Shown here piece by piece: positions 7,274 to 12,232 of a stretch of 23,313 bases of DNA (its first letter is position 1; each line of letters opens with the position of its first letter). The notes under the pieces were generated by a model. It did no database searches. It was given only the letters and a program-made list of their open reading frames with translations, and was not told where the DNA came from. The translations under genes were made by a program, and so were the position numbers. Where the stretch lies: IMG/VR virus record IMGVR_UViG_3300047562_001320, positions 1-23,313 of that record; one strand, given 5' to 3'. Origin of the DNA: a virus.

Positions 7274-9657
7274 TATGCTGCCAACATTTTTTTAACGTTA
7301 TCAACAACCTTTGGACCTCTCTGTTTGATATCGTTAGCCAATGCCTTTATGTCAATTGGTCGATTGCCTGCGCCGCCCTGTTGTGCTTGAGCAGCCTGTT
7401 TAAAATCTGCTGGTGCTCCTGGAGTGTTTGCTGCCTTTTGTACATTGTCGGTTGGCTTGTCGGTGCCGGAGGTTGGAGTACCGGCATCATCAGTTCCACT
7501 CTTATCTGTTGTGGTCGTGGTTGTTGTAGTATCAGTGCTTGTTGAACTATCGCCACCACCTGTTCCACCAGTCGTTGAAGTGGAAGTCGTGGTTGTTGTA
7601 CTTGTAATTGGATTGCCAGTTTTGTCTTTTAATGATGTTTTTGGAACATTGTAAGTTTTATTTTTGGCATCCTTGATGGAAAGTTTATTCTCGTCACCAT
7701 CTTCTGATGGACCAACTATTGTTCCTTTCATTTCTTGGCCTTTCTTCGTGGTGAAACTAATTTCGCTTCCTTTTTCGACACCCTGTTTTTCTAATTCCTT
7801 GGTTGCCGTAAAATCTTTTTCTACCTGCTTTTCTTCTTCAGGTGAAAGTCCTCTTCCCTTTCTCATTGCGGCATTTTGTTTTGCTTTACCAAGATCATCG
7901 GAAGTATCAGTTGCTGCTGGTTGTTTCTGATCAACCTGATCACCTGAATCACCCGCTGTTGTGTTGGCTGGTGCTGTGTCCGCTTTTTCTGCTCCTGGTT
8001 CCAAGTCAGCATCTGGAGCATCAGTCTTTTCTTTGCCCTGTTCCTGATCTGCCTTTGCCGCTACCGGAATCTGCATTGAATCATATGTGCTTTTGATGAC
8101 ATCATCATTAACGCCAAGGCTCTTAATTATGTTGTAAATTTCTTCAGAATCAGTCGGTGATCCTGCTTTTTTCCAAGCAGAGTTTAATTTTTCTGCTGTT
8201 ACTTTTGTGGTAACCTGTTTGGCTGCTCCCTTGATAGCACCACCAACTGCCTTGGCACCTTTCTTGAGTGCATCAAGTGGACCTTCGTTGATCGTTTGTC
8301 TGTTGTAGTGTGCGAGTGCATCAAACACGCTTTCAAACATCAATTTGCTTTCCAGCATGTGTGTGTTTACTTTTTCTAATCGATTAAACAACAGATAAAT
8401 TTGTCCTTCTGAAAGTTTCTGACCTTTGTATGCCTTGCTTTCCTTAGGTGCTTCGCCGCCTTCCAGTTCTGCTTTTTGTTCAGGACTGATTGGTTTAGCC
8501 TTGTGCATGTCCTTGGCATCGTCATCAACAGTTTGCATAGCACCCTGTGCCGCTGCTCCTGCTGCTCCTCCAATGCTTTGTATTGTTTCCATTGCTTCGT
8601 CTGCATTGTCAAGCACGGCAATAACTGCATCTAACTGATCACCTGTTAATGCATCTCTAGGAATGTCTGCTATGGTTCTTGCAAGTGCGGTTAGGTCTGC
8701 GTTTGCTTGTTGTGTTGTTGCTAGCCAGCCGTGTAATTCTCCTGCTGCTTTGTAATACTCCGGACTAAATGCTTTTGCGTTTGACGCCGCTGATGCTAAT
8801 TGTTTATACGTTGCAACCTGATCGGCAGTCATTGTCAAATCGTAATTGTAATAAAATGCATTGATGTTGCCCGACAGTTCTAAATTCTGTGCTCCGTCCA
8901 GCACACCCTTGCCCAATCCTGAATCTGCAACGGCCTTGTCCACGGCAGCCGTAAAGTTTGCCTTTTCAAAACCATTTATCATGGCGTCTGCTTCTGCTTC
9001 ACTGCCAATGACAATGTTGTCAATGATGTTATCAGTTATGCCCTTGATTGCCGCACCAGCAAGAGCACCATAGGCTGCTGTCTTGATTGATTTGCCCACT
9101 GCCGTTGAAAGTTTTTGTCCCTGTAATAAATCCTTGGTTGCTCGTGCAAGGAAACCCGCAATGGCACCGCCCAGTGGTCCACCAGCAACTGCTGCCGCTG
9201 CCGTTAGAATACCAACCGCGATTGAAGCCTTGCCTGGATTTTCTTTTGCCCAGTCCGAAACTGCCTTGACCGCATTAACTACCTTGCTGTCCTTTGAACC
9301 AATCTTTTGTTTTAGTTCCTCAAACTTAGCGTCTGCATTTTTTACTGGACCAGCCTTTTGTACCAATCCACCGAGCTTGTTAATTTGTGTATCAATCCAC
9401 TTGACTGCCTCAACGGGAAGTTTTGCGACATCAACTGCCTTGCCGGCAATGGTTCTGTTTCCGCCTGCGGCAGTTGCTCCCTGTTCAATTCCTGTGAATA
9501 AATTCTTAATTTGGTCCTGAGATAGATTTGCTTCAAACACATACTGTTCAATTCTCGCTACCCAAGGATGAATTTGTTTCTGTTCAAATAGCGTCCATGC
9601 CGGATCGTTCCATCCTTCCGTGATTAATTTTCTGTCCTGTATGTGTCCTAATCTCAT
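7273..9657 (-). CDS. Large candidate internal/ejected virion protein with prohead-protease sites
   Basis: A 794-residue protein of several parts. Residues 1-14 form a leader ending ITE followed by G. A Gly/Ala-rich hydrophobic region (about 143-205) could insert in a membrane. A helical region follows, with LSE-G at 415-418. A second leader-like site, INE-G at 456-459, starts a GPLDALKKGAKA segment, then a compact domain (about 485-532, VTAEKLNSAWKKAGSPTDSE) that I recall from marine phage virion proteins. The C-terminal third is Asp/Lys/Thr-rich, holds a short beta-rich SH3-like stretch (629-677) and a Thr/Ser tract (685-718). It overlaps the upstream gene by ATGA and the downstream one by TAATG. 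Packaging in the head, with processing and possible ejection with DNA, is inferred. A tail-associated structural protein is the alternative. Confidence 0.6.
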   Translation of the reverse strand: MRLGHIQDRKLITEGWNDPAWTLFEQKQIHPWVARIEQYVFEANLSQDQIKNLFTGIEQGATAAGGNRTIAGKAVDVAKLPVEAVKWIDTQINKLGGLVQKAGPVKNADAKFEELKQKIGSKDSKVVNAVKAVSDWAKENPGKASIAVGILTAAAAVAGGPLGGAIAGFLARATKDLLQGQKLSTAVGKSIKTAAYGALAGAAIKGITDNIIDNIVIGSEAEADAMINGFEKANFTAAVDKAVADSGLGKGVLDGAQNLELSGNINAFYYNYDLTMTADQVATYKQLASAASNAKAFSPEYYKAAGELHGWLATTQQANADLTALARTIADIPRDALTGDQLDAVIAVLDNADEAMETIQSIGGAAGAAAQGAMQTVDDDAKDMHKAKPISPEQKAELEGGEAPKESKAYKGQKLSEGQIYLLFNRLEKVNTHMLESKLMFESVFDALAHYNRQTINEGPLDALKKGAKAVGGAIKGAAKQVTTKVTAEKLNSAWKKAGSPTDSEEIYNIIKSLGVNDDVIKSTYDSMQIPVAAKADQEQGKEKTDAPDADLEPGAEKADTAPANTTAGDSGDQVDQKQPAATDTSDDLGKAKQNAAMRKGRGLSPEEEKQVEKDFTATKELEKQGVEKGSEISFTTKKGQEMKGTIVGPSEDGDENKLSIKDAKNKTYNVPKTSLKDKTGNPITSTTTTTSTSTTGGTGGGDSSTSTDTTTTTTTTDKSGTDDAGTPTSGTDKPTDNVQKAANTPGAPADFKQAAQAQQGGAGNRPIDIKALANDIKQRGPKVVDNVKKMLAA
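7504..7605 (-). repeat. Thr/Ser-coding low-complexity tract
   Basis: Encodes residues 685-718 of the 794-residue virion protein, almost all Thr, Ser, Gly and Asp. The DNA is a run of ACN-type codons (GTN on the plus strand). It probably forms a flexible linker and could vary in length by replication slippage. Confidence 0.6.
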
Positions 9658-10388
9658 GATATTAATCCCAGCAGTTGTTGTTTTTGTTTTTGATCTAATT
9701 TTTTAATTTGTGCTTCAATGTCCTTGGGAACTCCGGTAATTCCTAGCCCTGATTTTAATCCTGCCACGAATCCACCCGCTCCTCCCTGGCCCGATACCGC
9801 CGGCGCCTGTCCGGCTCCCTGCTTATCCATTCCGCCGCCCTGTGCGTATTTGTCGGCAACCGCTCTAAGGAAAACGTTATCCAGTTGTCCTCCACTGAGT
9901 GCTTCCATGACGGCTTGCTTGTTGCTCCAATCAATGCTGGCTGCTAGTGCCGTGGTTGCCTTTGGTTGGTCTTTTGCCATGGCCTGATTGTAGCCAGCCT
10001 TTGCTCCTGCTGCCACATCCTTGGCGGTATCCGCCGCCGCGGTAGCGGCTTTGCCCACGCCCTTGGCAACAGCGGCCGCACCAGTCCCTATAGCGCCACC
10101 CACCTTCTGTGCCATGGTAGGCTTTTTCATTTCTTCCTCTGCGCCCTTGGTCGGGTAACCCCGGCTCTTGAGCCATTGTACAACAACTTCTGGATCAGCA
10201 ACCTGTCGGCTCTGTCCAAGATAGCGCATGAATTCTTTCTTGAGATTGTTGGCTTCCTCGCCAGTCTGTAATTTGCCCTGTGCCTTGCTGCTTCCCAACT
10301 TGGCCATTGCCTTGTTGCCCAATTTGCTCAGCATGCCCATGGGTGCTTCATCTAGTTGTTGTTCTATCAGAATTTCGTTTAAACGCAT
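9654..10388 (-). CDS. Candidate internal head protein, first gene of its operon
   Basis: A 244-residue protein with an N-terminal leader ending LDE at residues 12-14, followed by APMGMLSKLGNKAMAKLG. This fits the (I/L)-x-E then A/G rule of the T4-type prohead protease, as in the two genes downstream. After it come a helical domain (about 48-82), an Ala/Gly/Lys-rich helix (90-140), a small domain (152-185), a Gly/Gln-rich linker and a C-terminal helix. A CATAAATA late box lies 31 bases before the ATG. The stop overlaps the next start as ATGA. The Ala/Gly-rich composition and leader suggest a packaged virion protein. No homologue is recognised, so the function is inferred from the shared leader alone. 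Confidence 0.6.
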   Translation of the reverse strand: MRLNEILIEQQLDEAPMGMLSKLGNKAMAKLGSSKAQGKLQTGEEANNLKKEFMRYLGQSRQVADPEVVVQWLKSRGYPTKGAEEEMKKPTMAQKVGGAIGTGAAAVAKGVGKAATAAADTAKDVAAGAKAGYNQAMAKDQPKATTALAASIDWSNKQAVMEALSGGQLDNVFLRAVADKYAQGGGMDKQGAGQAPAVSGQGGAGGFVAGLKSGLGITGVPKDIEAQIKKLDQKQKQQLLGLIS

Positions 10389-10426: not shown

Positions 10427-10461
10427 TTCGAAACACTGTTAAGAGAGATCTAAAGATCTCT

Positions 10462-10491
10462 TGCGTTTTCGCTTTCGCTCAACGCATTTTT
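10462..10491 (+). terminator. Hairpin plus T-run, possible plus-strand terminator
   Basis: TGCGTT (10462-10467) pairs perfectly with AACGCA (10481-10486) and is followed by five T on the plus strand. A second perfect hairpin (10444-10461) lies directly before it. On the minus strand no T-run follows, so if it is a terminator it stops plus-strand transcription, such as antisense readthrough from the gp26-like operon. The 13-base loop is large and the stem short, so confidence is low. Confidence 0.3.
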
Positions 10492-10553
10492 CTCCCCATG
10501 AACTTTTGAGACACTTATTATATAGTGGAAGAATAACTGCGAAGCAGTTTTAG

Positions 10554-10642
10554 CATCATCTAGATTGTATGGTCACAATTAGCCCGTTGCCGGGCCAAAG
10601 GTGTGTTTTGAACATCATCTGAGTTCGCACAGTCACAATAGC
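10554..10642. repeat. Two imperfect 30-base direct repeats
   Basis: Copies at 10554-10583 and 10613-10642 share CATCATCT at the start and GTCACAAT followed by AGC at the end, with a diverged centre and one-base offsets. Their starts are 59 bases apart. A GCCCG/CGGGC hairpin (10582-10595) lies between them. They could be protein-binding sites or a duplicated RNA element. Confidence 0.5.
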
Positions 10643-10711
10643 ATTAGAACTACAAGATTGTATAATTTACAATATTTTACACAAAATTCTAATATATTTT
10701 GTATATTGTAC

Positions 10712-11020
10712 AACCTAGCGCAGGCGGTTATCCGGTACCTACTCATTCCGTCTTAGTATCTTACGTACAACGGCAGTTATGTCTTGAAATGCTATCTCCA
10801 AGCATAACCTGTGGGAATGACCCACTCTTTTAGCCTATTCGTTACTTTATTATTACACAGCAAACCGGTTGTTTTAGGCATATCCGATCGTCGTCCTGTT
10901 AAGGATAGTGCTGTTGCCACTCCGCCGTTACCCAGAGAATTCCTTACCGTGCGACATCACCACGGATTTCGGGCACCATATCAGTTGCCGGTGCGGGCTT
11001 AATTAACGGTTTGTACTGCC
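10712..11020. ncRNA. Candidate structured non-coding RNA
   Basis: This stretch is richer in G+C than its flank (33 of 60 bases over 10921-10980) and has no credible reading frame. CCGTTA-CCC (10925-10933) pairs with GGG...TAACGG (10995-10997, 11004-11009), enclosing two perfect 5-bp hairpins (10947-10951 with 10961-10965; 10973-10977 with 10990-10994), a three-way junction. To the left, GTTATG-CTTG with one bulged T (10776-10786) pairs with CAAGCATAAC (10799-10808), next to GTGGG/CCCAC (10811-10825). GGCAGT (10772-10777) could close the whole domain with ACTGCC (11015-11020). The strand is undecided. It lacks the marks of tRNA, tmRNA or RNase P that I know. Large phage RNAs such as GOLLD are a possible comparison, but I cannot show a match. 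Confidence 0.4.
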
Positions 11021-11455
11021 TTAGAGTATTTTTTTGAGGTGTTCTTTTAGAATTTTGGAACCGCCCACTCGCACGTTGATTATTCCATTGTAATAATCGT
11101 CTGTTTCCAGCACCCTGCGATCAAACTGTTCCTTTGCCTCTAGATAACTTAGTACGCCTTTGCTTGGACAATAGTGAAGAATTTCTCTCGTAAACTTTTC
11201 TTCGCCTAGTTTTGCTACGTCTTCCAGTAGATTGTCCGAGGAGCCCCAATAGTCTCTCCAATCGCTTTCAACTGTTGAACGTCTTTTGTTTTTTCTGCCT
11301 TTTAAAGGTGGTCTAGTTTTTTTGAATTGAGCAAGTTTCTTGCCTATGTATTTTCGCCCGTTAGTGAGATTTGTTATCAAATAGACAAAGCCAATGATTC
11401 CTTCCGGTATTTCATCAACAATTTTGTTATTATGTGTCCATTTGTGAGTCGTCAT
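11021..11455 (-). CDS. GIY-YIG endonuclease-like protein
   Basis: About 144 residues from the ATG at 11455; a TTG one codon upstream is less likely. The N-terminal part reads GFVYLITNLTNGRKYIGKK, the GIY-YIG motif (here FVY...YIG) with its conserved spacing. A basic stretch (KKTRPPLKGRKNKRR) and an ESDWRDYWGSS segment follow, and a Glu in SYLEAKEQF may be the metal-binding residue. The family includes the T4 Seg homing endonucleases and other small phage nucleases. It is last in a minus-strand operon, overlaps the preceding gene by 26 bases, and borders the gene-free region. It could be a free-standing homing endonuclease or a nuclease with a role in host DNA breakdown. The nuclease fold is confident, the biological role is not. 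Confidence 0.8.
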   Translation of the reverse strand: MTTHKWTHNNKIVDEIPEGIIGFVYLITNLTNGRKYIGKKLAQFKKTRPPLKGRKNKRRSTVESDWRDYWGSSDNLLEDVAKLGEEKFTREILHYCPSKGVLSYLEAKEQFDRRVLETDDYYNGIINVRVGGSKILKEHLKKIL

Positions 11456-11687
11456 CAATGTTACTTACTTTCGACGGTCGACCCACCATGCCTTTTCTGG
11501 CTTCCTTTCTTTCCTGCCTCTTATCTTGAATTTCTGTGCGCCTTAAACTTGCAAAATTACGTATCTCTGATAGCCAAAAGCGAGCCTTAATTCCGGCTTC
11601 GTCACTTCCCTTGTATTCAAATCTTTCCTGCCATTTGAAATAATTTTGGAATGCCTCTATCATTTTATCGTGATTATCAGTGCTCAT
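11430..11687 (-). CDS. Small basic conserved hypothetical protein
   Basis: An 85-residue protein if begun at ATG 11687, which gives an ATGA overlap with the stop of the dioxygenase gene, the usual pattern in this operon; a TTG two codons upstream is less likely. It contains a predicted helical pair (residues ~8-60) with AGIKARFWLSEIRNFASLRRTEIQDKRQERK, strongly basic at the end, then a polar acidic tail. Small proteins of this kind, in which a Gly-Ala-Arg-rich helix is followed by a basic helix, occur in marine T4-like phages as I recall. A DNA- or RNA-binding role is plausible from charge only. No function is assigned. Confidence 0.6.
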   Translation of the reverse strand: MSTDNHDKMIEAFQNYFKWQERFEYKGSDEAGIKARFWLSEIRNFASLRRTEIQDKRQERKEARKGMVGRPSKVSNIDDDSQMDT

Positions 11688-12232
11688 AACCAATTTGGTC
11701 CTGTGACAAAGTATGCCAGACTGGACCTTGTTCCTTTTGTTACGGGAGTAACTCTATGCGGAACAAAACTTGGAAAAACTATCATAGATCCGATCTTATC
11801 AAACTTATCAATTGGATAAGGACCGTTTAAGAATAATTCAAACTTTCCTCCGTCATAGTCATTCTCGCTTAGATTTAGTAATGCTGTTAATTTTATATCG
11901 TACATTTCTCCACCAACATTATCAGCATGCCATCCATATTCAGCATCATCTTGTGAGTGATAATCTGCATAGTTGACAATATCAAAATCACAGGCAGAAA
12001 ACAAGTTTAAACCGAAAAAATTTTTATTGATATCTTGAATGATTTGCCTAAACTTGTAGAGTTCTCTTGAAACCATTCCATAATCTACAATTTGCACCTT
12101 TGAAGTTTTTGTAACTCCTTGTGCAGGACTGTCAGAGGCTTTACTATTAATATTATTTTTAATCGCATTTCTTATGGCAGAACATTCTTCAACTGTGTGT
12201 GAATTTTCTACGACATAAAAGTGCGATTTCAT
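11684..12232 (-). CDS. 2-oxoglutarate/Fe(II)-dependent dioxygenase (prolyl-4-hydroxylase type)
   Basis: A 182-residue protein with the double-stranded beta-helix signature of the 2OG-Fe(II) oxygenase superfamily. The iron ligands are H102-x-D104 (in YGWHADN) and H159 (in FVPHRV), and R169 (in KGTRSSLAYF) is the expected 2-oxoglutarate anchor. The GGKFELFL segment before the distal histidine is typical of the prolyl hydroxylase/PKHD branch. Length is close to the minimal catalytic domain, so it is a stand-alone enzyme. It overlaps gp46 by ATGA and is cotranscribed with recombination genes. The substrate is unknown: protein proline/lysine residues or modified nucleobases are both conceivable. 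Such enzymes are common in marine T4-like phages. Confidence 0.88.
   Translation of the reverse strand: MKSHFYVVENSHTVEECSAIRNAIKNNINSKASDSPAQGVTKTSKVQIVDYGMVSRELYKFRQIIQDINKNFFGLNLFSACDFDIVNYADYHSQDDAEYGWHADNVGGEMYDIKLTALLNLSENDYDGGKFELFLNGPYPIDKFDKIGSMIVFPSFVPHRVTPVTKGTRSSLAYFVTGPNWL

Follow-up and report, generated by a model that had tools for sequence, protein, structure and literature searches.

The closest described relative of the RNA analysed here is the Polynucleobacter-1 motif (Rfam RF01718), which was listed as probably RNA, with Burkholderiales and fresh water or estuary samples as its sources (Weinberg et al. 2010, PMC2864571). It was marked 'probably' cis-regulatory in 2010 (PMC2864571), with cis-regulation standing outside the model definition. 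In the open-access papers searched, both its name and its accession occurred only in that paper, the available main text of which gives no function. Other points of comparison are GOLLD and ROOL, ornate RNAs of phages and prophages (PMC12286853) that are likewise large, pseudoknotted, phage-encoded and without assigned function; T-box riboswitches; and HEARO/OMEGA RNAs and TnpB reRNAs, which were likewise recorded as orphan structured RNAs adjoining a nuclease gene (e.g. RAGATH-18-derived RNAs, PMC11061315).

The window, meaning the whole 23,313-nucleotide stretch of viral DNA analysed, is a fragment of a T4-like phage with genes for portal gp20, gp46, gp47, late sigma factor gp55 and the baseplate hub. 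About 630 bases are free of genes between a GIY-YIG gene and a structural gene (9654-10388, minus strand). In this gap, cmscan matched RF01718 on the minus strand over the full model, the sole Rfam family at E<=1; GOLLD, ROOL and OLE gave no sequence or Rfam model match, and ARAGORN found no tRNA or tmRNA genes in the window. The window RNA is thus a full-length member above the gathering score and has the core CACTATCC...GGACGA in common with the family. RF01718 covers 141 nt of about 475 and is without PK1, the 3' domain, the pseudoknots of that domain and a duplicated 7-mer. Its published carriers are Burkholderiales and fresh water or estuary sources (PMC2864571), whereas those found here are T4-like jumbo phages. 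Unlike GOLLD and ROOL, this RNA lies at the gp46-hub locus and not beside a tRNA island, with tRNAs at least about 75 kb away in two genomes, and the duplicated phage-specific 7-mer is a feature of its own. The locus and the 5' part of the RNA are laid out as follows.

11021-11458, minus: GIY-YIG (SegE-like) nuclease gene, directly upstream of the RNA (Pfam PF19835, E 6e-36; phrog_447)
10535-11009, minus: whole RNA as far as conserved, from the alignment of 78-87 relatives and the Rfam match, running from 11009 (5' end) to a terminal UUCG hairpin
10853-10999, minus: 5' domain, RF01718 model positions 1-141 (64.1 bits, gathering 37, E 9.6e-12)
11004-11009, minus: PK1 5' strand CCGTTA, outside the Rfam model, pairing with TAACGG (10925-10930) in the P3 loop
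10973-10994, minus: P1 hairpin GCACC/GGTGC (4/5 pairs changed on both sides, 98.5% paired)
10947-10965, minus: P2 hairpin CCGTG/CACGG (6/8 family-helix pairs changed on both sides)
10920-10937, minus: P3 hairpin, its loop holding the PK1 partner (4/5 pairs changed on both sides; tree-null E<0.05)
10858-10913, minus: P4 (10913-10909/10862-10858) around the invariant core, from the pair count
10905-10894 and 10889-10884/10868-10863, minus: P5 hairpin and P6, both inside P4, from the pair count
10833-10879, minus: PK3, P6-loop GCCTA (10879-10875) with TAGGC (10837-10833), before a conserved AAAA-GA motif

Conservation among relatives passed the end of the Rfam model and continued for about 300 nt. 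RF01718 is therefore only the 5' third of a predicted RNA of about 475 nt; the remainder is absent from Rfam and has, in the aligned sequences, strong covariation and several pseudoknots. A model of the 3' domain, R1, matched 10549-10800 at E 1e-20, with the window row itself part of the model, and the transcript probably extends to about 10444. A sequence-only reading had already proposed a structured RNA of some 300 nt at 10712-11020. The Rfam match (E 1e-11, rounded) and covariation along the whole length bear out that proposal. The G+C content is, as it had noted, above that of the flank (0.52 at 10850-10999 vs 0.34-0.43). On its low side the interval fell short, as the RNA runs on to about 10535, and in finding no known RNA to match, the reading missed RF01718, the strand, the full extent and the duplicated 7-mer.

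We aligned 78-87 sequences, of which 78 non-redundant ones entered the covariation test against a tree-simulated null. Twenty-two pairs were significant at E<0.05, 18 of them canonical; with 20 simulations, these E-values are coarse. In counts of the stated structure, the family helices P1-P6 of the 5' domain were 92.9% paired across 26 sequences, and 20/38 pairs had changed on both sides; cells with double changes numbered 98, against 26.6±4.2 when shuffled and 10-19 when slid. The 3' domain was 96.6% paired with 18/27 pairs changed on both sides, and its 79 double-change cells compared with 22.5±4.0 shuffled and 4-9 slid. Folding energy gave no such signal, being no better than that of shuffled sequence on either strand (z -0.07, +0.48, +0.72, +1.06), and was dropped as a test of structure. 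The sequence-only reading had named such an outcome as refuting its proposal, but the covariation outweighs this absent signal. No open reading frame was conserved among the relatives, and a protein-coding reading was also dropped. On the evidence of these alignments, everything about the identification as a structured RNA is certain except its transcription.

Four pseudoknots were supported: PK1, PK2, PK3 and P7a/P7. In a swap test, strands were exchanged between RNAs for PK1, P7a, PK3 and a possible closing stem, and three long-range pairings gained support: PK1, P7a, whose loop forms P7, and more weakly PK3. For PK1, own stems averaged 4.06 bp vs 3.26±0.08 when swapped (highest of 500 swaps, 3.54). 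PK3 scored 5.39 against 4.89±0.14 (maximum 5.31), with GCC/GGC, GCT/AGC and CCC/GGG among its pairings; a first, looser test failed because A-T runs dominated, and as only the narrower test passed, this pseudoknot has the weakest support of the four. The remaining elements lie in the 3' domain and beyond it.

10811-10825, minus: hairpin GTGGG-TCATT-CCCAC
10776-10808, minus: P7a hairpin, its loop holding the P7 5' strand
10638-10795, minus: P7, a loop-to-downstream pseudoknot, ATAGCATT (10795-10788) with AATGCTAT (10645-10638)
10727-10771, minus: PK2, GTTGT (10771-10767) with ATAAC (10731-10727), crossing P8 and P9
10647-10748, minus: P8, GAAT (10748-10745) with GTTC (10650-10647) (4/4 pairs changed on both sides)
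10740-10738 and 10724-10722, minus: P9, inside P8, AGG with CCT
10613-10624, minus: copy 1, ACTC + AGATGAT (7-mer 10620-10614) + G, from covariation and copy comparisons
10579-10598, minus: hairpin between the 7-mer copies, TTGGCCCG/CGGGCTAA (93.5% paired)
10554-10565, minus: copy 2, ATCT + AGATGAT (7-mer 10561-10555) + G, from covariation and copy comparisons
10535-10549, minus: hairpin of the type AACTGC-TTCG-CAGTT, aligned by eye, stem letters varying among relatives
10463-10485, minus: GCGTT-GAGCGAAAGCGA-AACGC element, common downstream of the RNA in relatives
10444-10461, minus: hairpin AGAGATCTTTAGATCTCT, a candidate transcript 3' end predicted from sequence

In P7, 6/6 pairs had changed on both sides and 98.6% were paired; for PK2 the values were 3/5 and 99.1%, with column pair 253-284 significant. 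The strongest pair in the tree-null test, 266-302, fell in the P8/P9 region. All of the elements listed by the sequence-only reading are present and most are real helices, but in the minus-strand RNA. Its nine-pair stem (10925-11009) includes the PK1 strands, CCGTTA at 11009-11004 with TAACGG at 10930-10925, which recur with other letters in relatives, and the two hairpins enclosed by that stem are P1 and P2, with pairs changed on both sides. Its ten-pair hairpin is P7a, which covaries strongly (own 16.84 vs 11.25±0.25 swapped), and the adjacent GTGGG/CCCAC hairpin covaries at columns 197-210. A closing stem (10772-10777/11015-11020) can be formed here but drew no support from relatives (7.94 vs 7.83±0.15).

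Between P9 and the 3' strand of P8, the window and its near relatives have an additional AT-rich stretch (about 10656-10715 in the window) with long-hairpin potential; most others are without it. In one member (L078:11170-11581), copy 1 is missing along with a large part of the 3' domain, through natural deletion or assembly error. The GAGCGAAAGCGA motif within its outer stem was found in relatives' loci only 200-400 nt after the core, and the element could be where a protein binds, or could belong to the 3' end. The AGAGATCTTTAGATCTCT hairpin was not flagged as a terminator by a consensus scan.

Three significant non-canonical column pairs, which beat the tree-based null, link two stretches about 50 nt apart. 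These are the 7-mers, which stand after constant CTC and TCT and have all seven letters equal between copies. Equal copies occurred in 103/104 main-group loci with both anchors, in nine different 7-mers, and the copies still matched in lineages outside those from which the rule was discovered (ACATGAT, ACATAAA, GCCACAG, AGCACAT, AGTCAAG, GGTCAAG and GTGTCAAG). The longest word common to the copies averaged 7.21 within RNAs vs 5.52±0.12 after copy exchange. A regular-expression survey returned 184 RNA-like sites whose two 7-mers were identical throughout, near-duplicates included, along with about 120 unrelated sites recognised by their mismatching 7-mers; true one-letter differences between copies, in the wider survey, fell at positions 1 or 7. 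In one locus (L448) the copies differ inside the 7-mer.

Pairing of copy 1 with copy 2, suggested by alifold, was rejected, as the letters covary as identities and not as complements. Because the copies are identical rather than complementary, both would meet one partner, whose specificity changes between phages; the 7-mers imply a putative phage-specific partner bound twice. Candidate targets were sought in several ways and none was convincing: around the locus neither the 7-mer nor its complement was convincingly enriched (p 0.04-0.5, at best 0.04-0.07), no long complementary site was found, nor any site shared at orthologous gene starts, and the alignment held no third column that clearly covaried with the copies.

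The core pattern matched more than 119 viral contigs. Each of the 45/45 core-pattern contigs tested whole, including contigs of 343 and 345 kb, had exactly one RF01718 match (62-123 bits), and the RNA was single-copy in each of two genomes of about 345 kb. Gene order was nearly constant in 120 loci: gp55, gp47, gp46, GIY-YIG, RNA, variable gene, hub, structural gene, portal. The nearest upstream gene lay on the RNA strand in 107/107 loci, with a median of 106 nt between its end and the core, and the next downstream gene never started less than 303 nt from the core. To avoid selection by the RNA, contigs were also fetched by gp47 alone, some of which end before the site. The 3'-domain model matched 53/80 of these (weakest E 0.037) and 61/88 in a second set, always on the gp47 strand and downstream of gp47; in the first set, some of the weakest matches (E 0.01-0.04) rest on synteny and the duplicated 7-mer as well as on score. 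The 5' model matched 32 of the same 80 contigs, nearly always just upstream of the 3' match. Some members therefore have a recognisable 3' domain with a diverged 5' part, and of the two halves it is the 3' domain that is conserved more widely.

Carriers of the RNA are uncultured T4-like jumbo phages. When 84,980 bacterial species genomes were scanned with two patterns, four matches came back, none of them an RNA by Rfam. No similar DNA was found in named phages, and the RNA was absent from PA5oct, Atu_ph07, GAP32, Phosso and Vibrio 2.275. Two near-complete genomes of the group carry roughly 27-33 tRNA genes each beside a permuted two-piece tmRNA (L174:7900-8233 in G005 and L183:5048-5526 in G033), with tags ANDEQFALAA and ANDSQFALAA. 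We take permuted tmRNA with these tags to point to betaproteobacterial hosts, which would fit the name Polynucleobacter-1.

Several genes around the RNA deserve mention in their own right. The nuclease family phrog_447, widely annotated as 'NAD synthetase' in cyanophages, corresponds to the SegE-like GIY-YIG nuclease. At its position PA5oct, GAP32 and Phosso carry RusA, EndoVII or another resolvase, so the GIY-YIG protein may be a branched-DNA nuclease. Between gp46 and GIY-YIG lies a cargo zone, which in relatives holds radical SAM-like genes (cluster c4, cysteine motif CTLRCSRC) and in the window a 2OG-Fe(II) oxygenase gene at 11684-12232. After the RNA, the first genes of four loci (L030, L054, L056 and L077) encode unrelated proteins with a common N-terminal leader, M[KR]..EI[IL], which may serve in head targeting.

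On balance, we lean towards a single-copy, phage-encoded, trans-acting 'ornate' non-coding RNA on the minus strand, whose two recognition copies hold one kind of partner. The RNA would come from minus-strand transcription, probably alongside the gp46/gp47/GIY-YIG unit or by processing of that unit's transcript, and both of its domains, the 5' one (RF01718) and the 3' one, would be pseudoknotted. It would then display two identical phage-specific recognition copies, AGATGAT in the window, that jointly hold a protein dimer or an RNA.

The same position would also suit a cis-acting 3' UTR of the GIY-YIG/recombination message that protects its 3' end or regulates the upstream genes. The upstream gene is always on the same strand and close to the core, about 10 nt separate the GIY-YIG stop codon from the beginning of the RNA, a scan of the locus found no separate promoter, and terminal hairpins come after the RNA. 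However, several relatives have another gene between GIY-YIG and the RNA, meaning that its flanking gene is exchangeable, and a stabiliser would need far less than 450 nt, four pseudoknots and a pair of phage-specific 7-mers. We consider a 3' UTR unlikely, while giving it appreciable weight.

Less probable still, and in our view doubtful, is an RNA that uses two codon-like sites to bind a single tRNA species by its anticodon loops, much as a T-box does but in duplicate. The 7-mer can be read as two bases, a codon, A and one base, with the A facing the universal U33, as in a specifier loop. Nearly all variants have A at position 6 and, depending on lineage, ATG, ATA, CAC, TAC, TCA, ACA or GAA at positions 3-5, and the restriction of true copy differences to positions 1 or 7 agrees with such a reading. 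This scheme was formulated post hoc from data already seen, and copy 2 of L448 is an exception to the A at position 6. The sequences flanking the sites fail to pair with the CTCATAA anticodon loops of the Met/Ile tRNAs that these phages encode, and the missing stop triplets are expected by chance with so few lineages. The RNA also differs from T-boxes in having no Rfam T-box match at E<=1, no downstream regulated gene and two specifier-like sites, and in occurring in phages of presumed Gram-negative hosts.

Phage-specific direct repeats around an inverted repeat also resemble iterons bound by a co-evolving protein, which raises a DNA-level element such as a replication origin that has RNA-like structure as well. 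Against this, the compensatory changes include G-U pairs and there are several pseudoknots, as is characteristic of RNA, and GC skew did not turn at the site in two 345-kb genomes, where an origin was rejected; we find a DNA element very unlikely. On the model of the HEARO/OMEGA RNAs encoded beside IscB and TnpB, the RNA could be a guide or scaffold for the adjoining nuclease, given that the GIY-YIG gene (cluster c0) is the nearest upstream gene on the same strand in 93/107 loci and that the variable 7-mers look guide-like. The neighbour here is a GIY-YIG protein of only about 142 aa and not an obligate partner of the IscB/TnpB type, and no target site was found. The family is common without the RNA: it occurs in 455 phage records, and seven carriers that were checked had no copy of the RNA, indicating that the nuclease does not need it. 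A guide role is, if anything, slightly less credible than a DNA element. Finally, a riboswitch-like 5' leader of the structural gene at 9654-10388, in keeping with the 'probably' cis-regulatory mark of 2010 (PMC2864571), has almost nothing left to commend it, because the next gene is, by our count, on the opposite strand in 46/82 relatives (46 minus, 36 plus), which excludes a fixed leader role for most members and fails to give RF01718 a regular place before a gene, and because the late-promoter-like CATAAATA at 10426-10419 lies beyond the terminal hairpin, such matches being no commoner than chance.

As far as the tools used here reach, a phage RNA that carries several pseudoknots and phage-specific 7-mers in twin copies, at about three times the length of the recorded motif, is new. 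What was an orphan motif in 2010 becomes the 5' third of a much larger ornate RNA with a constant genomic site in a wide group of uncultured giant phages, and this RNA joins the few large RNAs of phages. We hold it improbable that the RNA has a programmable address, with codon- or guide-like twin copies capturing, in duplicate, one particular tRNA or another nucleic acid; if it did, the twin address would be re-specified in step as phages diverge, for example to shield or sequester a tRNA during infection. The concerted change of the 7-mers is evidence of a phage-specific partner, and it gives a handle for finding that partner.
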